DNA of 64,000 nt from Crossiella equi (lineage in GTDB: Bacteria > Actinomycetota > Actinomycetes > Mycobacteriales > Pseudonocardiaceae), in the NCBI RefSeq assembly GCF_017876755.1, contig NZ_JAGIOO010000001.1, positions 5,627,786 to 5,691,785 on the forward strand, written 5' to 3'. Numbering within the stretch: position 1 is the stretch's first letter; every line of letters starts with the position of its first letter. Shown here piece by piece: positions 44,998-55,900 of the stretch. The position numbers and the translations under genes are program-made. Below the pieces are notes generated by a model. It was not told the DNA's origin, ran no database searches, and worked only from the letters and a program-made list of their open reading frames with translations.

Positions 44998-46494
44998 TCA
45001 GGTGTTGGCCGCGCCGCGGATGAAGTCGGCCAGGTCCGCGGACTGCTGGAGCCTGCTCGGCTCGTGCACGTACATCATGTGCCCGGCCGGGTAGTAGCGG
45101 CGCTCGATGTTGGCCGCAAGCTCGTCCGGGATGGCCAGGTGGGCCAGCACGTGCTCGGAGGCGAAGTACGGGGTGGCGCCGTCGTGGTAGCCGAAGGCCA
45201 CGTGCACCTTGAGGTGCTCGTTGGCGCGCATCGCCTCGGCCAGGCGGCCCGCCGAGTTCACGTGTGAGCCCTCGAACTCCTTGTAGGACCACGGGTGCAC
45301 GTTGCCGGTGAGGATCTCGTACGGCAGGTCGTTGGCGTAGCCCAGCTCGGCGCGCACGTACTGGTTGAGCGCGGCCGAGTACGGGCCGAGGATCGCCGCG
45401 TAGGACGGGTCCTCCTCGAAGATCTCACCGCCGGAGTCGGAGTCGTGCCCGGCGAAGCGCCCGTCCAGGCGGCCCGCGACCTTGCGCTCCGGGCGCAGCA
45501 GCTCGGCGAAGAAGCGCAGGTGCTCGATGCGCAGCCGCACCCGGTCCACGTAGTCCTCGGACAGGCCGGTGAGCCCGGCCAGCCGCCGCGCGTGCTCGGC
45601 CCGTTCCTCGGCGGTGAGCCGGTTGCCCCTGGCCAGCGCCCACGGGTAGTCACGGGCGGCGTAGTCCTCGGCCTCGGCGAGCACGTCGGCCAGGGGCCGG
45701 TCACCGTGGCGGCCGTGGTGGTGCGCGATGGCCGCGTAGGTGGGCAGGAACAGCGGGTAGGGCAGGTCGTTGCCGGGGGTGAAGCGGATGGAGCCCATGT
45801 CCAGCACGGCGGAGATGAGCAGCAGGCCGTTGAGGTACATGCCGTGGCGGGCCTGGAGGTGCTGGGCGAGCCCGGCCGCGCGCAGCGTGCCGTAGGACTC
45901 CCCGGCCAGGAACTTCGGCGAGGACCAGCGCCCGTTGCGGGAGGTCCACAGCCGGATGACCTCGCCGACGGACTCCAGGTCACCGGTGTAGCCGTGGTAG
46001 TCGCCGGGGCGCTCCCCGGCCACCGCGCGCGAGTACCCGGTGGAGACCGGGTCGATGAAGACCAGGTCGCTGTGCGCGAGCAGGGTCTCCGGGTTGTCCA
46101 CCACGCGGTAGGGCGGGGGCGTCAACGCGCCCGCGTCGCCCATGAGCACCCGCTTCGGGCCGAGCAGGCCCAGGTGCAGCCACACGCTGGAGGAGCCGGG
46201 CCCGCCGTTGAAGGCGAAGGTCACCGGCCGCGCACCCGGGTCCGCGCCGTCCAGGGTGTACGCGGTGAGGAAGACCTCGGCTTTGGCCGCGTGCCCGGTG
46301 AACGTCCCGTCGGTGTGCACCTCCTTGCGGAGGACGACTCGGCCGGTGGTCGCCGTGTAGGACAGGTACTGCCCGCTGGCGGAGAGCTCGTGGTGGGTGG
46401 TGACCAGGTCGTCGACCGGTTCGGGCCGGGGCCCGTCCACACCGCCGGGCTTCCGCGTCGACTCGCCGTCGGCCGGCGTGTCCGTGACTGCCAT
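44998..46494 (-). CDS. S10 family serine carboxypeptidase-like protein
   Basis: Peptidase of the S10 family, removing C-terminal residues from peptides. 498 residues. Substrate-binding FNGGPGSSSVW near residue 98, nucleophile GESYGTLRAAG near 195, acid in GYHDGATPYF near 420, and catalytic His in YPAGHMMYVHEPS. No signal peptide is seen, so it may act in the cytoplasm on imported peptides; it sits beside a peptide importer, which fits. A TAACCT box on the minus strand (46501-46506) is 6 bases before the ATG, a leaderless arrangement. Confidence 0.88.
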   Translation of the reverse strand: MAVTDTPADGESTRKPGGVDGPRPEPVDDLVTTHHELSASGQYLSYTATTGRVVLRKEVHTDGTFTGHAAKAEVFLTAYTLDGADPGARPVTFAFNGGPGSSSVWLHLGLLGPKRVLMGDAGALTPPPYRVVDNPETLLAHSDLVFIDPVSTGYSRAVAGERPGDYHGYTGDLESVGEVIRLWTSRNGRWSSPKFLAGESYGTLRAAGLAQHLQARHGMYLNGLLLISAVLDMGSIRFTPGNDLPYPLFLPTYAAIAHHHGRHGDRPLADVLAEAEDYAARDYPWALARGNRLTAEERAEHARRLAGLTGLSEDYVDRVRLRIEHLRFFAELLRPERKVAGRLDGRFAGHDSDSGGEIFEEDPSYAAILGPYSAALNQYVRAELGYANDLPYEILTGNVHPWSYKEFEGSHVNSAGRLAEAMRANEHLKVHVAFGYHDGATPYFASEHVLAHLAIPDELAANIERRYYPAGHMMYVHEPSRLQQSADLADFIRGAANT

Positions 46495-46543
46495 GGACGC
46501 AGGTTAGACGGCGATTCCCCCACGGACGGCATGATCGGCCAAC

Positions 46544-46556
46544 AGTGTTCAACACT
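46544..46556. promoter_or_regulatory. Palindrome in front of the uracil-DNA glycosylase gene
   Basis: AGTGTT-C-AACACT is a perfect 13-base inverted repeat (46544-46556), 6 bases before the ATG at 46563 and within the divergent control region. Operator candidate. Confidence 0.5.
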
Positions 46557-46562
46557 ATTCCC

Positions 46563-47267
46563 ATGCGGTACCCCACTCTCGCCTCCCTGGACGAGGCCGT
46601 GACCCACTGCCGCCGCTGCCCGCGCCTGGTCGCCTGGCGCGAGGAGGTCGGCCGGGTCCGCCGGGCGGCCTACCGCGACGAGACCTACTGGGCGCGTCCG
46701 GTCCCGGGCTTCGGCCCGCCGGATGCCCGCATCGCCGTGGTCGGCCTGGCCCCGGCGGCCCACGGCGCCAACCGCACGGGCCGCATGTTCACCGGCGACC
46801 GCTCGGGCGACTTCCTCTTCGCCGCCCTGCACGCCACGGGCCTGGCCAGCCAGCCAACGGCCACCTCCCGGACCGACGGTCTGACCCTGCACCACACCCG
46901 CCTGGCGGCCCCGGTCCGCTGCGCCCCACCGGACAACAAACCCACCCCGGCCGAACGCGACACCTGCCGCCCCTGGCTCGCCGACGAGCTCACCCTCCTG
47001 GCCCCCACCCTCCGCGCCGTCCTCGTCCTGGGCGGCTTCGGCTGGCAAGCACTGCTCCCGGTCCTGACCGCCGCGGGCTGGCCGGTCCCCAGCCCGCGGC
47101 CCAAGTTCGGCCACGGGGTCGAGCTGCCCCTGGTCCGGGCGGACGGATCGGTGCTGCACGTGCTCGGGTCCTTCCACGTGTCGCCGCACAACACGTTCAC
47201 CGGGCGGTTGACGCCGAAGATGCTGGAGGGGGTGCTGACCAGGGCAAAAGCACTTGCGGGGGTGTGA
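46563..47267 (+). CDS. Type 5 uracil-DNA glycosylase (UdgB family)
   Basis: Excises uracil and other deaminated bases from DNA; family 5 enzymes carry an Fe-S cluster. 234 residues. CRRCPRLVAWREEV near residue 16 supplies two cluster Cys and PVRCAPP and RDTC the others. The active-site block is GLAPAAHGANRTGRMFTGDRSGDFL, and the second block is GSFHVSPHNTFTGRLT. ATG at 46563; an in-frame GTG 18 bases earlier lies inside a palindrome and is less likely. Convergently overlaps a small membrane-protein gene by 71 bases. Confidence 0.9.
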   Translation: MRYPTLASLDEAVTHCRRCPRLVAWREEVGRVRRAAYRDETYWARPVPGFGPPDARIAVVGLAPAAHGANRTGRMFTGDRSGDFLFAALHATGLASQPTATSRTDGLTLHHTRLAAPVRCAPPDNKPTPAERDTCRPWLADELTLLAPTLRAVLVLGGFGWQALLPVLTAAGWPVPSPRPKFGHGVELPLVRADGSVLHVLGSFHVSPHNTFTGRLTPKMLEGVLTRAKALAGV

Positions 47268-47499
47268 GTCCATTCGGGTTGTTCCCGGTACCAGCCCCAG
47301 CCGCCGGGTCACCAAGGCGGACGTCGAACTGGAGTACCCGGAACAGCGAGGCGTTCACAGCCACCGCGCGTCCCTCGACGTGGCCGCGCCGCAGCGCGAT
47401 CGCGACGACCGCAGGGACGGCGAGCACGGCAAGTCCGAACACCACGGCTAAGAGCCAGGGAGCAGCGTTCACGAGAGTGGCCATGGCCTCCACCCACAT
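47197..47499 (-). CDS. Small single-span membrane protein, unknown
   Basis: I do not recognise it. 100 residues: a short N terminus, a clear membrane segment (WLLAVVFGLAVLAVPAVVAIAL), then a basic stretch and FRVLQFDVRLGD, and a Pro/Ser-rich tail. ATG at 47499 with GGAAGG about six bases upstream. The last 71 bases overlap the end of the glycosylase gene on the other strand, which makes the exact C terminus uncertain. The membrane segment and ribosome site support it being real. Confidence 0.5.
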   Translation of the reverse strand: MWVEAMATLVNAAPWLLAVVFGLAVLAVPAVVAIALRRGHVEGRAVAVNASLFRVLQFDVRLGDPAAGAGTGNNPNGLTPPQVLLPWSAPPPASSASTAR

Positions 47500-47710
47500 C
47501 GTTGTGCCTTCCGTCGCTGGCTGCCCTTGCGGGATGACGATCACGATGACGGTAGGCCGGAAATCATGGGCTGAACTGACAAGGAAGGGACAAACTTTTC
47601 CAAGCTCTGTTGGACGACTTCTCCAGGTAGTCCCAGCCGGTCGTCTCCACCTCCAGCCGGGGTGAGCCCGAGCTCGCCGAGATCGACCGGGCAGAGGAGG
47701 CCCTCGCGCC

Positions 47711-48253
47711 GTGACGCCGCTCATCCTCCTGGACGTGGACGGCCCGCTCAGCCCGTTCGCGGCCAAGGCCCCGCCGCCCGGGTACGCCGAGCACCGCATC
47801 CGGTTGTCCCGGTGGCGGCGCAAGCCCGAGCTGCGGTTCTGGCTCAACGCCGGGCACGGGGCCGCGCTGCTGGAGCTGGCCTCGGCCGGGGCCGAGCTCG
47901 TGTGGGCCACCTCCTGGGAGCAGCGCGCCAACCAGCACATCGGGCCCGTGCTCGGGTTGCCCTCGTTGCCGGTCATCCACTTCACCGATCCGCGCCTGGA
48001 CTGGACCTGGAAGTACCCGACCGTGGCGCGGTACGCCGGGCGGCGGCCGCTGCTGTGGTTCGACGACGACTTCGACCTCTACCCGCGCCACCGGGACGAG
48101 TTCCTGGTGGCGCGGGAGGGGGTGCCGACCGAGCTGGTGCGGGTGAGCCCGCGGACCGGGCTGACCGAGGAGCACCTGGATTTCGCCCGGGAGTGGTTAA
48201 CCCAGTGTGTTCCCCCGGTTTCCCCTGGTGACGGACCCGCCAACAGCGGTTGA
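47711..48253 (+). CDS. HAD-like hydrolase family protein
   Basis: Haloacid-dehalogenase-fold protein, probable phosphatase with unknown substrate. 180 residues. Motif I is LLDVDGPLSPF at the very N terminus, motif II region ELVWATSWEQRAN, and an acidic motif IV LLWFDDDFD; no large cap domain. GTG at 47711 with GAGGAGG ten bases upstream. A TTA leucine codon lies at 48197-48199, rare here. Similar proteins are common in actinomycetes as secondary-structure-only HAD predictions. Confidence 0.72.
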   Translation: MTPLILLDVDGPLSPFAAKAPPPGYAEHRIRLSRWRRKPELRFWLNAGHGAALLELASAGAELVWATSWEQRANQHIGPVLGLPSLPVIHFTDPRLDWTWKYPTVARYAGRRPLLWFDDDFDLYPRHRDEFLVAREGVPTELVRVSPRTGLTEEHLDFAREWLTQCVPPVSPGDGPANSG

Positions 48254-48264
48254 CCAGTGGCGCA

Positions 48265-48306
48265 GAACACCCCGCGAAACGCCGCACTGAGGTGCGGAAC
48301 ACCCCG
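48265..48306 (+). repeat. Direct repeat GAACACCCCG upstream of ndh
   Basis: GAACACCCCG occurs exactly at 48265-48274 and 48297-48306, 32 bases apart (three helical turns), the second copy 43 bases before the ndh ATG. Possible activator or repressor sites. Confidence 0.45.
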
Positions 48307-48349
48307 TTTGTGGCCAGCGGGCATACCCCGTGGGTGCGACGATTCAGGT

Positions 48350-49675
48350 ATGGCTGCTGTGAAGTCGCAACCGACCCGGATCCTGGTCGTCGGTGGGGGC
48401 TACGTCGGTATGTACACCGCACTGAAGCTGCAGGCCAAGCTGCGCGCGAGCGAGGCGTCCGTGACGGTCGTCGACCCGCAGCCGCACATGACCTACCAGC
48501 CGTTCCTGCCGGAGGCCGCAGCCGGTTCCATCGAACCGAGGCACGTCGTCGTGCCGTTGCGCCGGGTCCTCAAGAGGTGTCACGTGCTCACCGGGCGCGT
48601 GACCGAGATCAACCACGCCGACAAGCGAGCCATCGTCGCCTCGCCGACCGGCGACCTGGAGTCCGTGGCCTACGACGTGCTCGTCGTCGCCCTCGGCTCG
48701 GTCGCCCGAACCCTGCCCATCCCCGGTCTGGCCGAGCGCGGCATCGCGTTCAAGACCGTGGGCGAGGCGATCTACCTGCGCAACCACGTCCTGTCCCGCA
48801 TGGACCTGGCCTCCACCACCGATGACCCCGAGCTGCGCAAGAAGCTGCTGACCTTCGTGGTCATCGGCGGCGGCTACGCGGGCATCGAGGCCCTGGCCGA
48901 GCTCGAGGACATGTCGCGGTACGCAACGCGGTACTACAAGAACATCACGCCCGAGGACATGAACTGGGTCCTCGTGGAGGCGGCCGGCCGGGTGATGCCC
49001 GAGGTCAGCCCGAAGATGGGTGTCTACACCGTGGAGACCCTCGAGGAGCGCGGCATCAAGTGCTTCCTCGACACCCGCGTGGAGTCCATGGTGGACGGTC
49101 ACGTGGTGCTCAGCGACGGCACCGAGTTCGACGCCGAGACCATCGTGTGGACCGCGGGCGTGAAGGCCAACCCCGTCCTGGAGCAGACCGACCTGCCCCT
49201 GGACGCGCGTGGCCGCGTGCGCTGCACCGCCAACCTCCAGGTCGAGGGCAAGCCCGACGCCTGGGCCGCCGGGGACAACTCCTCGGTACCGGACCTGTCA
49301 CGGACCGAGGAAGACCCGACCGCCACGTGCAGCCCCTCGGCGCAGCACGCGGTGCGGCAGGCCGTGCATCTGGCCGACAACATTCTGGCCTCGCTTCGGG
49401 GCAAGAAGCTGAAGCCCTACCGCCACAAGTACGCGGGCTCGGTAGCCTCACTCGGCCTGTACAAGGGCGTCGCCGACGTCTACGGGATCAAGCTCAAGGG
49501 CTTCCCCGCGTGGTTCATGCACCGGACGTACCACGTCAGCCGCATGCCCACGTTCAACAGGAAGTTCCGGGTCCTGATCGACTGGACCCTTGCGCTACTC
49601 TTCCGGCGCGAGGTCGTGTCACTCGGTCAGATCAATGACCCGAAGGCTGAGTTCGCACGCGTCACAGCAAGTTGA
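48350..49675 (+). CDS. ndh: Type II NADH dehydrogenase (NDH-2)
   Basis: Single-subunit FAD enzyme that passes electrons from NADH to menaquinone without pumping protons. 441 residues. FAD-binding ILVVGGGYVGMYTA near residue 10, NADH-binding FVVIGGGYAGIEAL near 170, and AAGDNSSVPD near 305; the C-terminal 60 residues contain amphipathic/basic segments (FRVLIDWTLALLF) for membrane attachment. The ATG at 48350 is favoured over the upstream in-frame ATG at 48257 because homology starts here. Direct repeats lie upstream. Confidence 0.93.
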   Translation: MAAVKSQPTRILVVGGGYVGMYTALKLQAKLRASEASVTVVDPQPHMTYQPFLPEAAAGSIEPRHVVVPLRRVLKRCHVLTGRVTEINHADKRAIVASPTGDLESVAYDVLVVALGSVARTLPIPGLAERGIAFKTVGEAIYLRNHVLSRMDLASTTDDPELRKKLLTFVVIGGGYAGIEALAELEDMSRYATRYYKNITPEDMNWVLVEAAGRVMPEVSPKMGVYTVETLEERGIKCFLDTRVESMVDGHVVLSDGTEFDAETIVWTAGVKANPVLEQTDLPLDARGRVRCTANLQVEGKPDAWAAGDNSSVPDLSRTEEDPTATCSPSAQHAVRQAVHLADNILASLRGKKLKPYRHKYAGSVASLGLYKGVADVYGIKLKGFPAWFMHRTYHVSRMPTFNRKFRVLIDWTLALLFRREVVSLGQINDPKAEFARVTAS

Positions 49676-49757
49676 CCAACCGAGGGCCTGAGTTCCACGT
49701 TTTGGGCGTAAGGATTACTCCTTCTGGAGTTCCTCGACATCCGGACGTACGGAATGT

Positions 49758-49801
49758 AACTTGAGGTTGTCTTGACATTCTGTGATGAGAAACTTGAGAC
49801 T
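49758..49801 (+). promoter_or_regulatory. Promoter and direct-repeat operator of the peptide/ATP-grasp unit
   Basis: TTGACA (49772-49777) and GAGACT (49796-49801) are 18 bases apart, the best -35/-10 pair in the window. AACTTGAG occurs on both sides, at 49758-49765 and 49791-49798, 33 bases apart. The whole stretch 49710-49800 is clearly less GC-rich than its surroundings. A weak ACTCC-TTCT-GGAGT hairpin at 49717-49730 may end the ndh transcript. Confidence 0.6.
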
Positions 49802-49857
49802 ACGCCCGGTGCCGCACCTGAACGTGTGAAGCATCACACCGAAGAGAGGTGACCGCC

Positions 49858-49977
49858 ATGTCGATCGAGGAGCTGGCCGCCCTGGTACGCGAGGGGAAGG
49901 CCAAGGACAGCGCGCTCGCCGACTACGCCGCGGAGTACGCCAAGGCGCGGAAGGTCTTCCGCAAGAAGGACGACTGA
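49858..49977 (+). CDS. 39-residue charged peptide, candidate RiPP precursor
   Basis: A short ORF with a good ribosome site (GAGAGG) and ATG at 49858. The peptide starts MSIEELAALVREG, has a middle of KAKDSALADYAAEYAKARK and ends FRKKDD. It has 6 Lys, 8 Asp/Glu, one Ser, no Thr or Cys, and is predicted to be helical. Its stop is three bases before the ATP-grasp gene, so the two are translated together. Placement suggests a precursor modified by the ATP-grasp enzyme. If so, cross-links would have to be Lys-Asp/Glu amides rather than the commoner Thr/Ser esters. An alternative is a small helical partner protein. Confidence 0.6.
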   Translation: MSIEELAALVREGKAKDSALADYAAEYAKARKVFRKKDD

Positions 49978-49980
49978 CAC

Positions 49981-51177
49981 GTGACCGCCGCCGGACGGGG
50001 GCAGGAGGCCGCACCGAGGCCATCCGGTCCGCCAGCCGCCACCGAGGTGCTCGGCCCCGAGCCGACCGCCCCGGAGACGGCACCTGCCACCGTCCCCGCC
50101 CCGGCGGTCACCCCGTCCCGGGCCACACCCCTGCTGCTGCAGGGGCAGGACTACTACTACCGCTCGCCCAACACCTGCCTGGACTTCCAGGAGCGGGTGC
50201 ACGAGATGGGCCTGGTCGAAGAGGACAGCGGTGACCCGCTGCCCTGCGTGCTGGTGCTGGCCCGCGCCGCCGACATGGAGATGAACGAGCTCTCGCTCGC
50301 CCTCGCCGAACGCGGCATCCGCATGGTGCGCATCGACGCCGACCGGTGCCTGAACCTGCCGCTCACCGTCTACACCGACGCCCCGCTGATCGAGCTGAAC
50401 CTGCGCCTGCTGCGGCCCATCCTGGTCTGGCGGCGCCACTTCGACATCTCCGCGGTGCCCGTCGACCAGCGCACGATCAGCGGCGCCTACGCCGCCGACC
50501 AGTGGCGCTCGGTGATCAACTGGCTGGCCCAGCGCCAGGACTGGGCGCACGTGAACCCCACGCGCGCCACCTGCCAGCTGGACCGCCTCACCCAGCTCTC
50601 CGACGCCGCCTCGTTCGGGCTGAAGGTGCCGCGCACCGCGGTCACCACGCAGCCGGGCCGCACCCGCCCGGGCGGCGGCCGGTGCATCGTCAAGACCGCG
50701 GGCCAGCACCTGCTGGAGCCCCGTCCGGGCGCGCTGCACGGCCTGTTCCCGCGCCCGCTGGACACCAGCCGCGCCGGGGACAGCCCGGAGTCCGCGCCGG
50801 TCATCGTGCAGCAGTTCCTCAACTCCGACGGCGAGCTGCGGGTCTTCGTCGTGGACGAGAAGCTGATCACCTACCGGGTGGAGAAGCTCGACCCGGCGCA
50901 GCTGTGGGTCGACCCGGACGCGGTGAAGGTCACCCGCACCGAGGTCCCCGACGAGCTCGCCGACCGCCTGCTCAAGCTCGCCCGCCACTGGAACGTCCAG
51001 GTCGCCGCGTTCGACCTGCTCGTGGTGGACGGGGACCACGTGTTCCTCGAGATCAACGTCAGCTGCGACTGGCGCTGGTTCGAGCACCGCGCTGGCAGCA
51101 CCGAGGTCTCCGACGCGGTGCACGACTGGGTGGCAGGCCGCTTCGGCGAGCTGCTCGACGCCCGTGCCGGGATATAA
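49981..51177 (+). CDS. ATP-grasp ligase resembling graspetide synthetases (MvdD-like)
   Basis: Probable peptide-modifying ATP-grasp enzyme forming bonds between side-chain carboxylates and nucleophiles. 398 residues: a disordered Ala/Pro N terminus of about 50, then a pre-ATP-grasp domain (LARAADMEMNELSLALAERG, RIDADRCLNL, VWRRHFDISAVP), a recognition-helix region (YAADQWRSVINWLAQ), and the ATP-grasp core with DAASFGLKVPRTAVTT, CIVKTAGQ, VIVQQFLNSDGELRVFVVDEK and the metal site LLVVDGDHVFLEINVSCDW. That domain order and the ELRVFVV and LEIN blocks are those of graspetide synthetases. GTG at 49981 has AAGGA upstream and is three bases from the peptide stop. No protease or exporter is adjacent. 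Confidence 0.75.
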   Translation: MTAAGRGQEAAPRPSGPPAATEVLGPEPTAPETAPATVPAPAVTPSRATPLLLQGQDYYYRSPNTCLDFQERVHEMGLVEEDSGDPLPCVLVLARAADMEMNELSLALAERGIRMVRIDADRCLNLPLTVYTDAPLIELNLRLLRPILVWRRHFDISAVPVDQRTISGAYAADQWRSVINWLAQRQDWAHVNPTRATCQLDRLTQLSDAASFGLKVPRTAVTTQPGRTRPGGGRCIVKTAGQHLLEPRPGALHGLFPRPLDTSRAGDSPESAPVIVQQFLNSDGELRVFVVDEKLITYRVEKLDPAQLWVDPDAVKVTRTEVPDELADRLLKLARHWNVQVAAFDLLVVDGDHVFLEINVSCDWRWFEHRAGSTEVSDAVHDWVAGRFGELLDARAGI

Positions 51178-51286
51178 CGCCGCCGCACCGCCCGAGGTGC
51201 ACGGACGTACCGCCGGTCGGTCCCGGTGTGTTCGGCCGCACGGGCGAGTTGTCGCGATTGAGACCCGAAAGCGACCTTCAACGGCT

Positions 51287-51292
51287 TAGCAT
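51287..51292 (+). promoter_or_regulatory. -10 box of the tRNA gene
   Basis: TAGCAT ends 7 bases before the mature 5' end of the tRNA, so the primary transcript would start almost at base 1. No clear -35. Confidence 0.4.
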
Positions 51293-51299
51293 GCCCGCT

Positions 51300-51373
51300 G
51301 CCCCCGTAGCCCAATCGGTAGAGGCAGGCCCCTTAAAAGGGTCCGAGTGACGGTTCGAATCCGTCCGGGGGCA
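51300..51373 (+). tRNA. tRNA-Leu-like gene with UAA anticodon and short variable loop
   Basis: Acceptor GCCCCCG (51300-51306) pairs with CGGGGGC (51366-51372), discriminator A. D arm GCCC...AGGC; anticodon arm GGCCC-CTTAAAA-GGGTC puts TAA at 34-36, reading the codon TTA; T arm GACGG-TTCGAAT-CCGTC. 74 bases, no CCA encoded. The variable loop is only five bases (CGAGT), whereas bacterial tRNA-Leu normally has a long variable arm. The cloverleaf is complete, so it should fold; its charging identity is less certain than its anticodon. Confidence 0.85.
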
Positions 51374-51448
51374 CTACCGCGTCAGCCGAAAGGGAACCGT
51401 GAGGGTTTCCGCAGTGGCCTGACCACGCCGCCGTCCTAGGCTGGCCTC

Positions 51449-52174
51449 GTGGAAGCCAAGCCGGGGCAGGCCGTCGCCGATGTGCGGGGGCGGGTGCTGG
51501 TCGTCGACGACGACCTCACCGTGCGCGATGTCGTCCGCAGGTACCTGGAGAGCGCCGGGCACCAGGTGCGCCTGGCCGGGGACGGCGAGCAGGCGCTCTC
51601 GGTCTTCGAGCAGCACGGCGCCGACCTGGTGGTGCTCGACCTGATGCTGCCCGGCATCGACGGCCTGGAGGTCTGCCGCAGGCTGCGCCGCCGCAGCGCG
51701 GTGCCGGTGGTCATGCTCACCGCGCTGGGCGAGGAGGAGGACCGGGTGGCCGGCCTCCAGCTCGGCGCCGACGACTACGTCACCAAGCCGTTCAGCCCGC
51801 GCGAGCTGGTGCTGCGGGTCAACTCGGTGCTGCGCCGCCTGCGCGTGCCCGCCCCCGCGCCCAAGCTCGACCACCTCGCCGACGGCGACCTGCTGCTGGA
51901 CCCGGTGGCCCGGCGCGCCACCCGGGCCGGGGCCGAGCTGGCGCTGACCACCCGCGAGTTCGACCTGCTGGCCTTCCTGCTGGCCCATCCCGGCGAGGTC
52001 TACACCAGGGCCAAGCTGCTGGAGCTGGTCTGGGGCTGGGACTTCGGCGACGCGGCCACGGTCACCGTGCACGTGCGGCGGCTGCGGGAGAAGATCGAGC
52101 CGGACCCGGCCAACCCGGTGCGCATCGCCACCGTGTGGGGCGTCGGCTACCGCTACGACCCGAGCCCGGCATGA
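51449..52174 (+). CDS. OmpR/PhoB-family response regulator
   Basis: Phosphorylation-controlled transcription factor paired with the next gene. 241 residues. Receiver domain: [14 protein letters not shown], phosphoacceptor in [14 protein letters not shown] (Asp near 66), [11 protein letters not shown]; winged-helix domain from about 145 with [32 protein letters not shown] and [14 protein letters not shown]. The GTG at 51449 is 6 bases after TAGGCT (51437-51442), a leaderless arrangement. ATGA overlap with the kinase gene. Confidence 0.93.
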
Positions 52175-53184
52175 GCGTCGAGGCCCTCAACGCCGCGTTC
52201 TACGCGCTGGCCTTCTCCGTGCCGGTGGCCCTGCTGGGCGCGCTGGTGCTGCACTTCTGCCGCGACCGCTCGCTCACCGCGGCCATCACCGTCGCGGTGC
52301 TCACGCCGCTGGCCGCCACGCTGGCCGGGGTCACCGCGGTCAGCGGGTTCATGTTCACCAGCCAGCTCACCACCACCGTGGTGATCGTCGCGCTGGTCGG
52401 CCTGGTCACCGTGCCCGCCGCCATGTTGTTCGGCCGGGCCATCGCCCGGCGCAGCGTGTGGGAGCGGGAGGCGCGGGCCCGGGAGCGCGCGGCGGAGGCG
52501 GCCCGGCGCGAGCTGGTCGCCTGGATCAGCCACGACCTGCGCACCCCACTGGCGGGCATGCGCGCGATGACCGAGGCGCTCACCGACGGCGTGGTCACCG
52601 AGCCGGAGGAGGTGCGCGCCTACCTGGCGGGCATCGGGCGGGAGACCGAGCGCGTCTCCGGCATGGTCGACGACCTGTTCCAGCTCTCCCGCATCACCGC
52701 GGGCGCGCTCAACCTCGACCTGACCGCCCTGCCGCTGCGCGACCTGGTCAGCGAGGAGGTCGCCGCCCAGGCCGCGATCGCCCACCGCGCGGGCGTCACC
52801 CTGGAGGAGCGCCCCAGCGACTGGCCGGTGGTGCACGGCAGCGCCCGCGAGCTCGGCCGGGTCCTGCGCAACCTGCTGAGCAACGCCATCCGGCACACCG
52901 AACGCGGCGGCGTGGTCGCGGTGACCGCCGGCGAGGTCGACGGCCAGGCCTGGCTCGCGGTCGACGACGGCTGCGGCGGCATCCCGGACGGCGAGCTGCC
53001 CCGGGTCTTCGACGTGGCCTACCGCGGCAGCGCGGCACGCACCCCAGAGCCCGACCAGGCCGCCGGGGCCGGGCTCGGGTTGGCTATCGCCCGGGGGCTG
53101 GTTGAGGCGCACCACGGCCGGATCAGCGCCAGCAACCACGGTCCCGGGTGCCGGTTCGAGGTCCGGCTGCCGTTGGCGGGGTGA
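52171..53184 (+). CDS. Sensor histidine kinase
   Basis: Membrane sensor kinase that phosphorylates the upstream regulator. 337 residues. Three or four N-terminal membrane segments (to about residue 95) with almost no extracellular domain, HisKA with [17 protein letters not shown] (His near 125), then the ATPase domain with [30 protein letters not shown] and [18 protein letters not shown]. The tiny outside part suggests it senses membrane state or a membrane partner. ATG at 52171 overlaps the regulator stop. Confidence 0.92.
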
Positions 53185-53250
53185 GCCGGGCGGCCGGTCG
53201 CCTGCCCGAACGGGCCCGGCGCTGCGGCCAGCCCGGTGAGATTTCACCCG

Positions 53251-53284
53251 ATCGAGTACTTCAGCTGTCAAACTGGTACTCGAT
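53251..53284 (+). promoter_or_regulatory. Inverted repeat overlapping the MpaB start codon
   Basis: ATCGAGTAC (53251-53259) and GTACTCGAT (53276-53284) are exact complements 16 bases apart; the second arm includes the A and T of the ATG at 53283. GGTGA/TCACC (53235-53248) is a second, shorter pair. Could be an operator or an RNA hairpin that closes the start codon. Confidence 0.5.
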
Positions 53285-54128
53285 GAGCGCAGAGGCGGCC
53301 GGGCTGTTCGGGCCGGATTCGATCACCTGGCGGGTGCACTCGGATCCGGTGCTCTTCCTCGGCGGTCTGCGGGCGTTGTTCCTGCAGGCCCTGCACCCGC
53401 TGGCCATGGCGGGGGTGGCGCAGCACTCCGGGTTCGAGAGCGATCCCTGGGGGCGGCTGCTGCGGACCGCCGAGTACGTCGGGGTCGTCACCTACGGCAC
53501 GCTCGGCCAGGCGCGGGCCGCCGGGGCCGCCGTGCGGCGGGCGCACCGGGGGCTGACCGGGGTTGAGCCGGAGAGCGGGCTGCCCTACCGGGTGACCGAT
53601 CCCGAGCTGCTGCTGTGGGTGCACAACTGCGAGGTCGACTCGTTCCTGGACACCGCCCTGCGCAGCGGCATGCGGCTGACCGGCGCCGAGGCCGACCGGT
53701 ACGTGGCCGAGCAGGTGCGCGCGGCCCGGCTGGTCGGGGTGCCCGAGCGGATGGTGCCCACCACCCGGGCCGGGCTGGCCGCCTACTTCCGCGCCCAGCG
53801 GCCGGTGGTGCGCTCGACCGCCGCCGCCCGGCGCACCGCGCGGTTCCTGCTGTTCCCGCCCATGCCAACGCCCGTGCAGCTGCTCACCCCCGCCCGGCCC
53901 GCCTGGGCCGCCCTGGCCGCGCTCAGCTACTCGCTGCAGCCGGACTGGGCCCGGCGGACCTACGGCCTGTCCGGACTGCCCGGTACCGCGCTCGGGGCCA
54001 CCGCGCTGGCCCGCTCGCTGCGCCTCATGCTGCTCGCCCTGCCGAACTCGCTGCGCCAGGGGCCGCACCACCGCGCCGCGCTGGCCCGGGTGCAGGCCGA
54101 GCGGGACCGCGAGGAGCTCGGGGCGTAG
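53283..54128 (+). CDS. Oxygenase MpaB-like protein (DUF2236)
   Basis: DUF2236 protein; relatives include fungal MpaB oxygenase and the rubber oxygenase Lcp, with heme b. 281 residues. Family blocks: WRVHSDPVLFLGGLRALFLQALHPLAMAGVAQHS (His residues for heme), RLLRTAEYVGVVTYG, ARAAGAAVRRAHRGLTG, and LLWVHNCEVDSFL. No signal peptide. ATG at 53283 sits inside an inverted repeat. Ends in a GGGCGT/ACGCCC hairpin that includes its stop. Confidence 0.85.
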   Translation: MSAEAAGLFGPDSITWRVHSDPVLFLGGLRALFLQALHPLAMAGVAQHSGFESDPWGRLLRTAEYVGVVTYGTLGQARAAGAAVRRAHRGLTGVEPESGLPYRVTDPELLLWVHNCEVDSFLDTALRSGMRLTGAEADRYVAEQVRAARLVGVPERMVPTTRAGLAAYFRAQRPVVRSTAAARRTARFLLFPPMPTPVQLLTPARPAWAALAALSYSLQPDWARRTYGLSGLPGTALGATALARSLRLMLLALPNSLRQGPHHRAALARVQAERDREELGA

Positions 54129-54180
54129 CGGACGCCCTGACTGGGTAACCCCGAACGGGGGTCACCCGGAAAGGCAGGCC

Positions 54181-54816
54181 ATGCGTTCACCCGAGACAAC
54201 AGGTCCCGACCTCGTGGAGCAGGGACCGGCGGAAGCCGACGTTCTCTTCGTGCTCGACCCGGCCGGACTGGGCAGGCATGGTCGCCTGCCCGCGACCTGG
54301 CGGGACATCGCGCGGTCCACGCACATCGCCTGGCTGCGCCTGCCCGCGACCCCGGCCGCCATGCCCCGGGCGCGGGACGTGCTGGAACGCCTCGCGGACT
54401 CCGCCAGCACCATCGACGTGCTGGCCGAGGGCACCGCGGCGGGTCCGGCGATGCTGCTGGCCACCGACCACCCCGGCCAGGTGCGCTCGGTGCTGCTGGT
54501 CGACCCCGAGCCGTGTGATGCCGGACTCGCCGCCGAGCAGGGCGCGAGCCAGCTCGACCAGGCCCTGCTGAACCTGCGCTCGGTGCCGATCGAGCAGGTG
54601 CTCACCGGCCACGGTGTGCGGGTGAAGGTGCTGGACCGGGGAGCGGAGCCGGTGCGGCTCGGCCACCCGAGAGTGGTGGCCGAGGTGGCGGGGGAGCTGC
54701 GCGGCGAGCACGTGCCCGCGCGGGCGCGCTGCACGGTCAAGCGCCCGTCGGTGCCCGGCCAGGTGTGGCAGGCCCTGCGCATGCGCTTCCGCGACCGTTT
54801 CGCCCGGCAGCGCTAG
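54181..54816 (+). CDS. Hypothetical protein, possibly hydrolase-like
   Basis: I do not recognise it. 211 residues, no signal peptide or membrane segment. ADVLFVLDPAGLGRHGRLPATWRDIA and IDVLAEGTAAGPAMLLATDHPGQVRSVLLVDPE recall the beta-strand/nucleophile rhythm of alpha/beta hydrolases, but there is no GxSxG serine (GTAAG occupies that place), so a catalytic role is doubtful. The C terminus is strongly basic (RMRFRDRFARQR). The stop TAG lies inside GCTAGG, the IS481 target copy, so the element inserted right at its end. Confidence 0.6.
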   Translation: MRSPETTGPDLVEQGPAEADVLFVLDPAGLGRHGRLPATWRDIARSTHIAWLRLPATPAAMPRARDVLERLADSASTIDVLAEGTAAGPAMLLATDHPGQVRSVLLVDPEPCDAGLAAEQGASQLDQALLNLRSVPIEQVLTGHGVRVKVLDRGAEPVRLGHPRVVAEVAGELRGEHVPARARCTVKRPSVPGQVWQALRMRFRDRFARQR

Positions 54817-54840
54817 GTGTACTGACTCGTGACGTTGTTG
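54812..54840. repeat. IS481 left end: target duplication plus terminal inverted repeat
   Basis: GCTAGG at 54812-54817 is the target copy; the 23-base terminal repeat 54818-54840 starts TGTACTGACTC and ends GACGTTGTTG. It matches the right end at 20 of 23 positions in inverted orientation. Confidence 0.9.
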
Positions 54841-55900
54841 AGACTCACCCGGCCAGGACGCTGATCGGTGGGTGGCCTGCCAGGGCTGAGTGGGCGCGTT
54901 GGGTGTTGTAGCGATCCACCCAGCCCGGCAGTGCCGCCACCCGCTCGTCGTTGGAGGTCCAGGCCCTCGCGTAGGCGAACTCGGTCTGCAACGTCCGGTT
55001 GAACCGCTCGGCCTTGCCGTTGGTCCAGGGACACCCCGGTTTGATGAAGCGCCGCCGGATCCCCAGGGCGGTGCAGACCGCCTGCCAGTCCCGGTCCACT
55101 CGGTAGGCCTTGGCGTTGTCGGTGAGCACCCGCAACACGGTCACGCCCTGGTCCCGGAACCAGCAAGCGGCCCTGTGCAGGAAACCCGCGCAGGTCAGAC
55201 CCTTCTCATCCGGCAACGCCTCGACATAGGCCAGGCGGGAACGGTCATCGACAGCCACGTGCAGGTAGTCCCAGCCATTGCCCCGGCCACGGACGGCCTC
55301 GCTGCGACCGTGCACGCGCCAGCCACCACCATCAGGGATCCGGCCGAGCTTCTTGACATCGACATGCAGCAGGTCACCGGGGTGCGGGCGCTGGTAGCGG
55401 ATCCCGGTGTGGCGGCGGCGCACCGGCAGCCCGGTGACGGCGTCCAGGTGGGCGAGTGCGGGCACGTGGTGTCGGCGCAGGATCCGGCCGACGGTGGCCG
55501 CGGCCAGCCCGAGCAGTCCGGCCAGGTGCACCGCGCCCCGGCGGTGCTCGGTCCGGGCGGCCAGAACCGCCGTCTCGAGCTCGGCGGGGGTGCGGGTGGG
55601 GCTGGTGTGGGGGCGGGAGGAGCGGTCGGCCAGGCCCGCTTCACCCTCGGTGCGGTAGCGGTGGATCCATTTGTGCACGGTGGTGCGGGAGATGCCGAGT
55701 TGTTCGGCGATGCGGGCCGGTGGCCACCCGGCCTGGTAGCGGGTGTTGATGAGCTGGCGTGCGTGGATGGTGGTGCGGGCGTTACGGTGCATGTGAGGAC
55801 CTTCTGGTGCGCGGTGGTTGCGTAGAGAACATCCACTTCGCCTGAAGGTCCTCCCTGCTTTCAAGGCGACACGCCCGCAACAACGTCATGAGTTACTACA
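54818..55900 (-). mobile_element. Complete IS481-family insertion sequence
   Basis: 1083 bases bounded by 23-base inverted repeats and flanked by identical GCTAGG hexamers (54812-54817 and 55901-55906). GCTAGG fits the NCTAGN target reported for Bordetella IS481. It holds one transposase gene on the minus strand. Taking out the element and one hexamer restores the presumed original junction between the hypothetical gene and the convergent NarL-type regulator. Ends and ORF are intact, so recent and possibly active. Confidence 0.93.
54845..55792 (-). CDS. IS481 family transposase
   Basis: DDE transposase. 315 residues. N-terminal HTH (ARIAEQLGISRTTVHKWIHRYRTEGEAGLADRSSRP) then the rve integrase core: first Asp in DLLHVDVKKLGRI, second in RVLTDNAKAYR, and Glu in NGKAERFNRTLQTEF. 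The ATG at 55792 follows GGT and gives the usual start MHRNART; a longer frame to 55864 would reach toward the element end. Not frame-shifted. Confidence 0.93.
   Translation of the reverse strand: MHRNARTTIHARQLINTRYQAGWPPARIAEQLGISRTTVHKWIHRYRTEGEAGLADRSSRPHTSPTRTPAELETAVLAARTEHRRGAVHLAGLLGLAAATVGRILRRHHVPALAHLDAVTGLPVRRRHTGIRYQRPHPGDLLHVDVKKLGRIPDGGGWRVHGRSEAVRGRGNGWDYLHVAVDDRSRLAYVEALPDEKGLTCAGFLHRAACWFRDQGVTVLRVLTDNAKAYRVDRDWQAVCTALGIRRRFIKPGCPWTNGKAERFNRTLQTEFAYARAWTSNDERVAALPGWVDRYNTQRAHSALAGHPPISVLAG

Follow-up and report, generated by a model that had tools for sequence, protein, structure and literature searches.

Many soil actinomycetes carry a real, inherited unit of two genes, one for a short peptide and one for an ATP-grasp ligase. 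The unit was identified in a 64,000-nt stretch (hereafter, the window) of the 9.44-Mb genome of Crossiella equi, and its sequence suggests that it probably comprises a peptide and a modifying enzyme, a pairing that departs from what usually holds for such peptides. We judge it rather probable that the unit is RiPP-like, with the peptide as substrate of the ligase and a carboxylate at or near the peptide tail as the group attacked. The features of the locus are listed in Table 1.

Table 1. Features of the peptide-enzyme locus and its flanks, in window coordinates
Feature	Position	Strand	Remarks and basis
Type II NADH dehydrogenase (NDH-2) gene, syntenic flank, outside the unit	48257..49675	+	
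Conserved promoter: TTGACA (49772-49777), 18-base spacer, GAGACT (49796-49801)	49772..49801	+	upstream-region counts, alignment of 28
Conserved 5′ leader element GGTGCCGCACCTGAACGTGTGA, possible operator	49808..49829	+	upstream-region counts, genome search
Ribosome-binding site GAGAGGTG of the peptide gene, 5′ of its ATG	49844..49851	+	sequence; relatives with similar sites
Proposed precursor peptide, 39 residues, conserved	49858..49977	+	leader-like, about residues 1-27; tail, about residues 28-39
AAGAAGGA within the KKDD codons, probably doubling as Shine-Dalgarno site of the enzyme	49963..49970	+	
ATP-grasp ligase, 398 residues, graspetide-synthetase-like	49981..51177	+	NCBIfam and PDB matches, alignment
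tRNA-Leu(UAA) gene, syntenic flank, outside the unit	51300..51374	+	

The peptide gene

The initial annotation described a short open reading frame with its own ribosome-binding site, ending three nucleotides before an ATP-grasp gene, and the coordinates confirm this arrangement: the TGA of the peptide gene and the GTG of the enzyme gene are separated by CAC. The encoded peptide, MSIEELAALVREGKAKDSALADYAAEYAKARKVFRKKDD, contains no Thr, as annotated, and two Ser residues (S2 and S18) rather than the one reported. Of the residues checked as graspetide core donors and acceptors it contains Lys and Asp; it contains no Cys and no Pro, and its tail reads RKKDD. The Phhx(1,2)h leader motif does not occur in the window peptide, which lacks the Pro, and no GG-type cleavage motif occurs in 23 aligned peptides of the KKDD type. 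The N-terminal part, with the pattern [ST]LxELAxxxRxG...LAxYAxEY, may form two short helices. The genome of the window contains one convincing copy of the peptide (1.3e-20; next match, 0.29). In Saccharopolyspora loci (L126-L134, L136-L143, and L149), in L123, and in Gandjariella, the peptide gene starts with TTG in place of ATG.

The ATP-grasp enzyme

The claim that the enzyme is built like graspetide synthetases holds as kinship: matches to NCBIfam families and solved structures are significant, and all are below curated cut-offs. Specifically, the enzyme scores 86.7 bits against TIGR04187 (cut-off 350), which places it outside the GRASP_SAV_5884 subfamily as curated, 53.3 bits against MvdC (cut-off 425), and 48.5 bits against MvdD (cut-off 475); its Pfam matches are weak, and none reaches its cut-off. 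A profile of 19 relatives matches PDB entries 7m4s (AMdnB), 7mgv (CdnC), 7drm, 5ig8, and 5ig9 ahead of RimK types. K238, E285, R287, D345, E357, and N359 are invariant in the 19 aligned sequences, and we take these to be the usual ATP and Mg residues, on the basis of the aligned motifs; an N-terminal segment, PLLLQGQDY...DFQERV, is conserved in the same set. The locus thus combines a synthetase homologous to MvdC, MvdD, and PsnB, with scores below curated cut-offs, and an adjacent conserved short open reading frame in the position of a precursor gene, a role that is predicted.

Among the matches listed, the nearest named loci are those of Crossiella sp. SN42 and S99.2, with enzymes 89-91% identical. 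Among loci from the best 80 of 98 relatives, the automatically chosen enzyme start lies -4 to +3 bases from the peptide end in 69 of 75. In three loci of the Actinosynnema type (L025, L029, and L099), a very long stretch of low complexity extends the enzyme frame at its N-terminus, and the peptide is consequently found as far as about 1 kb upstream of the conserved region.

Co-occurrence of peptide and enzyme

The check proposed in the initial annotation, co-occurrence of peptide and enzyme, gave a positive result. In a draw of 200 Pseudonocardiaceae genomes (thresholds: enzyme E ≤ 1e-20, peptide E ≤ 1e-4), 71 were found to contain the enzyme; the peptide was found in 69 genomes, every one of them among the 71. 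The two enzyme-bearing genomes with no peptide match are G011 (74% complete), where the enzyme is represented by just a fragment at the edge of a contig, and G191, whose enzyme is only 38% identical. The peptide lies upstream in 57 of the 58 family loci read (of 71), and the 58th is that of G191 (L050), where a diverged peptide was found. The best 80 of 98 relatives in the genome collection gave 79 named loci, 75 of them orthologous, and the peptide lies upstream in 75/75 of the latter; the pattern used, which required L-A at positions 6-7 and a C-terminal [KR][DE][DE], caught all 75, with none dropped. The remaining four named loci, which have no peptide, contain homologs 32-37% identical from Streptosporangium and relatives. 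Enzyme homologs devoid of a short upstream frame, which the initial annotation named as a refutation, are therefore not encountered among orthologous loci. In a mirror-tree comparison, the partial correlation of peptide and enzyme given NDH-2 is 0.54, and that of peptide and NDH-2 given the enzyme is 0.36, which is only suggestive of peptide-enzyme coupling.

Constraint on the peptide

The peptide is constrained at the protein level. We aligned 76 peptide coding sequences (61 distinct; 40 columns) from the best 80 of 98 relatives. Differences at codon positions 1, 2, and 3 amount to 24, 15, and 42%, mean pS is 0.52 and mean pN 0.19, and pN is below pS in 1825 of 1830 pairs of distinct sequences. 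These values, together with the finding of the peptide only in enzyme-bearing genomes, indicate that the frame is not a chance one. Nine residues are invariant in 76/76 sequences (L6, A7, R11, G13, A21, Y27, K38, D39, and D40 in alignment numbering), including the C-terminal KDD, so that lack of peptide conservation, the other refutation named in the initial annotation, is not borne out either. The claim of a conserved, co-inherited peptide and enzyme of RiPP-like layout is thereby supported. The claim of a misfit with known graspetide cores also finds support.

The KKDD codons, AAGAAGGACGAC, resemble a Shine-Dalgarno site of the enzyme, and this role may account for part of the tail conservation. 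The tail codons contain AAGGA in 60/76 sequences and AAAGA in 16/76, and the last Asp codon is GAC in 51 and GAT in 25. The last Asp codon thus varies while the residue is fixed, which indicates that the amino acids, not the DNA alone, are constrained; with the AAAGA sequences, it indicates that a DNA effect is not the whole story.

Control region

The initial annotation called the promoter of the peptide gene the clearest of the window. A strict sigma-70 consensus scan of positions 45000-55000 returned no promoters and did not list the TTGACA of the window. TTGACA is, however, conserved, being present in 71/76 upstream regions from the best 80 of 98 relatives. TTGAC[AT] is present in 74 (letter-shuffle expectation, 3.6 on average), at 82-88 bases 5′ of the start codon in 72 of these. 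The sequence TCACCTGAA, of which the window has the copy GCACCTGAA, is present in 49/76 (letter-shuffle expectation, 0.02). With at most one mismatch, the element GGTGNNTCACCTGAANGTGTGA occurs once in the genome, at the peptide-enzyme locus; three further sites have three mismatches, and a reversed control gave none. We conclude that the unit has a conserved control region of its own.

Genomic place and descent

All 74 orthologous loci tested from the best 80 of 98 relatives (L145 left out) have an NDH-2 match, which lies directly upstream in 17/17 whose coordinates were inspected. The tRNA-Leu(UAA) gene lies downstream in 73/75; the two loci in which no tRNA was found stop short, L102 at 203 bases past the enzyme and L145 within the enzyme itself. 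For an empty-site test, we used 20 family genomes having no orthologous unit, out of 130 in the draw. In 17/20, NDH-2 and the same tRNA are so close together that the unit could not fit between them (gap of 25-259 bases in 15 of the 17; tRNA on the opposite strand in L184); of the other three, two have no tRNA in the stretch examined and one has no close NDH-2. The same junction thus exists in genomes free of the unit, which makes the tRNA a mere neighbor. Enzyme and NDH-2 trees group similarly, largely by genus, with L123 and L135 placed differently among the branches listed. The fixed site and the largely concordant gene trees favor vertical descent, and the simplest reading is that the unit is a cassette inherited at a single fixed site and gained or lost as a whole.

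Several other connections were considered and rejected. The enzyme has matches in only 6 plasmid records and 1 phage record, at about 23-28% identity, which argues against a mobile origin; PADLOC gave no match for enzyme, peptide, or SagB-type protein, which argues against antiphage defense; and neither gene contains a TTA codon, which argues against bldA-type control. The response regulator of the downstream two-component system was found in 0 of 21 loci of relatives compared, including another Crossiella, which argues against a role for that system. The statement that no protease or exporter is adjacent holds for the direct neighbors identified (NDH-2, tRNA, and response regulator). Farther upstream, the window contains a serine-carboxypeptidase-like gene (44998-46494, minus strand), 3.4 kb from the unit and on the opposite strand, and a uracil-DNA-glycosylase gene (46545-47267, plus strand), upstream of NDH-2. 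The two are syntenic upstream of NDH-2 in 12/17 orthologous loci compared, and their orientation and distance suggest background gene order.

A SagB-type third gene in relatives

A gene for a SagB-type nitroreductase lies 3′ of the enzyme in 22/75 orthologous loci from the best 80 of 98 relatives, a count to which L102 and L145 are too short to contribute. The protein scores 127.5 bits against TIGR03605 (cut-off 78.4) and 164.3 bits against TIGR04511 (cut-off 240), and matches Pfam Nitroreductase. The orthologous loci with this gene are from Saccharothrix, Umezawaea, Actinosynnema, Solihabitans, Streptoalloteichus, Longimycelium, and Actinoalloteichus. No SagB-type gene was found in the genome of the window at E ≤ 0.001, or in four other Crossiella genomes at E ≤ 1e-30. 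All five outgroup loci with a recognizable peptide (L050, L158, which is the same as L206, L207, L257, and L259) carry SagB, and SagB presence requires five changes on the enzyme tree and four on the NDH-2 tree. The outgroup loci indicate that SagB is likely ancestral and the two-gene form of the window reduced; the window unit is likely, judging by these gene contents, a reduced form of a three-gene system. The unit had been described as minimal, a state that is probably derived, since relatives have a third gene.

SagB alone was rejected as a marker of the unit: SagB relatives also occur in unit-free genomes, in other settings. Two such loci, L249 and L255 (Pseudonocardiaceae genus g16), have a SagB-type gene 42-45% identical, preceded by a TPR/regulator-like gene and a gene for a conserved short acidic peptide (MHDEDEDEFLYELEAEYKAQSTWGGFEPPPNGGPPFRSRR or a near copy); peptide and SagB there are possibly another small peptide system.

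Outgroup peptides

Among the five outgroup loci, L050 is from Pseudonocardiaceae, and L158, L207, L257, and L259 are from family f31, which is presumably Streptosporangiaceae, since one of its loci, L161, has a match in the named Microbispora locus L155. The peptide tails read KKDN (L259), CKSCHGG (L050), CKGCHGG (L158), CNKTHC (L207), and CAKTHC (L257); L207 and L257 are near-copies, with enzymes 85% identical, so that the five loci represent four independent tails. Against the peptide profile, the L259 peptide scores 23.1 bits (best of 1000 shuffles, 9.0) and is clearly homologous to the KKDD type. The L050 peptide scores 11.1 bits (99th percentile of shuffles, 4.7; best shuffle, 11.4), and the L158, L207, and L257 peptides score 2.8, 3.2, and 3.7 bits, each below the 99th percentile of its own shuffles; of these four, L050 alone is set apart from its shuffles. 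The sequence kinship of the Cys-tailed peptides to the KKDD type is therefore weak, and their link to the family comes from gene order, ribosome site, and enzyme kinship. The N-terminal parts of the outgroup peptides look alike, with M[ST][IV]Q... followed by F..[YF]...Y ahead of the tail. A leader-like part kept and a tail exchanged, as these peptides suggest, is the pattern of RiPPs.

Past the conserved Tyr, L050, L207, and L257 (3/5 outgroup tails) contain no Asp or Glu, so that a side-chain acceptor is unavailable in that segment and the family as a whole cannot be explained by the usual side-chain links of graspetides. Common to all tails are a Lys and the C-terminal carboxylate.

A leader-pattern search of 25 loci (L206-L230) found a peptide in 2. 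No leader-type peptide was seen by eye in L153-L156, L160-L163, L165, L166, or L077, and no recognizable peptide in L229 (enzyme 31% and SagB 35% identical). The locus L164 has an unrelated-looking short open reading frame, MQKEFEDFMRQYEASRARLNKSETE, upstream of a distant ATP-grasp relative with no SagB match; it was not counted, and is possibly another precursor type. In L153, L154, and L156, ATP-grasp relatives 32-33% identical are followed by a gene that by eye resembles those of AfsR/SARP-type regulators.

Proposed mechanism and alternatives

In the mechanism that we infer, including the modification itself, its site and manner, the peptide helices, the order of events, and the function, the N-terminal part of the peptide would act as a leader that binds the enzyme; the ligase would phosphorylate a carboxylate at or near the C-terminal tail, either in the invariant Asp pair or at the terminus; and the activated carboxylate would be joined to an amine, most likely a tail Lys, giving a lactam, and otherwise a small cellular amine. 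These two outcomes are close sub-readings of the substrate reading. In relatives, the SagB-type flavin dehydrogenase would then oxidize the product, a step missing from the Crossiella line. The nearly fixed tail and vertical descent suggest a single conserved product that serves a constant role, as opposed to an antibiotic that changes fast. Several observations count against the substrate reading: GG cleavage motif, Phhx(1,2)h motif, and a directly adjacent protease or exporter are all absent; the peptide is conserved end to end within the family, unlike typical precursors with variable cores; the Cys-tailed peptides are weakly linked by sequence; and the probable Shine-Dalgarno role of the KKDD codons may explain part of the conservation. 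A more specific proposal, which we regard as tentative, is that the graspetide-like ligase works on the tail of a fixed, carrier-like peptide, forms no side-chain macrocycles, and yields one conserved small product. The product would be a signal, a cofactor, or a cross-linked tail, inherited like a housekeeping trait beside NDH-2 in Pseudonocardiaceae.

Two alternatives are special cases of the substrate reading. Enzyme kinship with graspetide synthetases, the invariant Lys and Asp of the tail, and the existence of isopeptide-forming graspetides, noted in the accessible part of PMC13097080, are compatible with an ordinary graspetide in which only Lys-Asp/Glu side-chain lactams form, in the KKDD tail or the helical part. 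This alternative, which overlaps our best explanation, is possible and on balance doubtful, since the peptide lacks Thr and a leader motif and the L050, L207, and L257 tails lack Asp and Glu, unless leader carboxylates serve. The other special case is addition of an amino acid or amine to the terminal carboxylate of a carrier peptide, as in PEARL (pearlin) or LysW pathways, with a small molecule built on the scaffold and later released. The peptide is fixed end to end with a C-terminus invariant within the family, the terminal carboxylate is the sole carboxylate past the Tyr in 3/5 outgroup tails, and PEARLs use ATP to activate a C-terminal carboxylate at a site like that of ATP-grasp enzymes, according to the accessible part of PMC11962472. 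Against it are the lack of a directly adjacent protease and of a further enzyme in the two-gene form, PDB matches in which graspetide synthetases rank above RimK types, and the lack of a known donor, and we consider it doubtful.

The remaining alternatives give the peptide another role. It is unlikely that the peptide is a small partner or activator of a ligase whose true substrate lies elsewhere: end-to-end peptide conservation, the conserved N-terminal segment of the ligase, and the partner-dependent graspetide synthetases noted in the accessible part of PMC13097080 would fit, but a leader-like part kept with exchanged tails fits a precursor better, with kinship weak for 4/5 peptides. Still harder to accept is an upstream regulatory frame that provides translational coupling only, its KKDD kept because AAGAAGGA is the ligase Shine-Dalgarno site. 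AAGGA in 60/76 tails and enzyme starts within -4 to +3 bases in 69/75 agree with it, but AAAGA in 16/76, an invariant last Asp despite codon variation, pN below pS, and outgroup Cys tails ending in quite different residues do not. Pup-like tagging, in which the ligase would conjugate the peptide C-terminus to cell proteins, is highly improbable: the peptide is small, rich in Lys, Asp, and Glu, nearly fixed in sequence, and acidic at its C-terminus, but the KKDD type lacks a GG motif and the Pup ligase PafA has another fold.

Implications

If the peptide is modified, the unit would be a small, easily expressed two-gene system with chemistry not guessable from known graspetides. A sequence so fixed and a chromosomal position so stable would suggest that the product serves the producer in a lasting way. 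Such roles are uncommon for RiPPs, with PQQ and mycofactocin as examples. The outgroup tails KKDN, CKxCHGG, and CxKTHC would provide ready comparison substrates for these ATP-grasp enzymes. If the tail-acting proposal is true, the family would be an ATP-grasp RiPP branch outside the graspetide class, including, in relatives, SagB-type oxidation of CKxCHGG and CxKTHC tails.

Comparison with known systems

LysW and LysX, a small acidic-tailed carrier peptide and a RimK-like ATP-grasp ligase, resemble the window unit. LysW has zinc-finger Cys residues and an EDWGE C-terminus; the window peptide has no Cys and ends in RKKDD rather than EDWGE, and the window enzyme, unlike LysX, is nearest another ATP-grasp branch. 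With MvdC/MvdD, PsnB, CdnC, and AMdnB (microviridin and relatives), the unit shares the ATP-grasp domain, the active-site motifs, and a precursor gene adjoining the ligase; in contrast to these, its enzyme is far below family cut-offs, and its peptide has no Thr/Ser...Asp/Glu core, leader motif, or GG site. With PEARL pathways (TglA/TglB), it would share, if the ligation reading is right, ATP-driven activation of a terminal carboxylate and a fixed scaffold peptide. PEARLs, as described in the accessible part of PMC11962472, are LanB-like and use aminoacyl-tRNA, and no PEARL was seen at the window locus.

The unit had been proposed as an undescribed RiPP system, which is doubtful. In a search of the open-access literature for ATP-grasp with SagB or nitroreductase (most subscription journals lie outside this scope), only PMC8939145 was relevant; a survey of 21,584 predicted graspetides, which adds 19 groups to 24, names no SagB group in its accessible part (PMC13097080). 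The accessible part of PMC8939145 (Makarova et al. 2022) reports Phhx(1,2)h in about 50% and a GG-type motif in about half of graspetide precursors. It describes branch 6 ATP-grasp loci whose precursor clusters 367 and 1115 have neither motif, most of them with a SagB-like enzyme of the nitroreductase superfamily, and suggests that their products are possibly outside the graspetide class. The window unit differs from branch 6 in having no SagB gene, no SagB-like dehydrogenase having been found in its genome at E ≤ 0.001, and the likeness is one of description. That description, as far as the accessible part gives it, fits the relatives found here: a short precursor with neither motif, a SagB gene, and two distantly related precursor clusters. 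We predict that branch 6, with clusters 367 and 1115, is probably the same group or a sister group.
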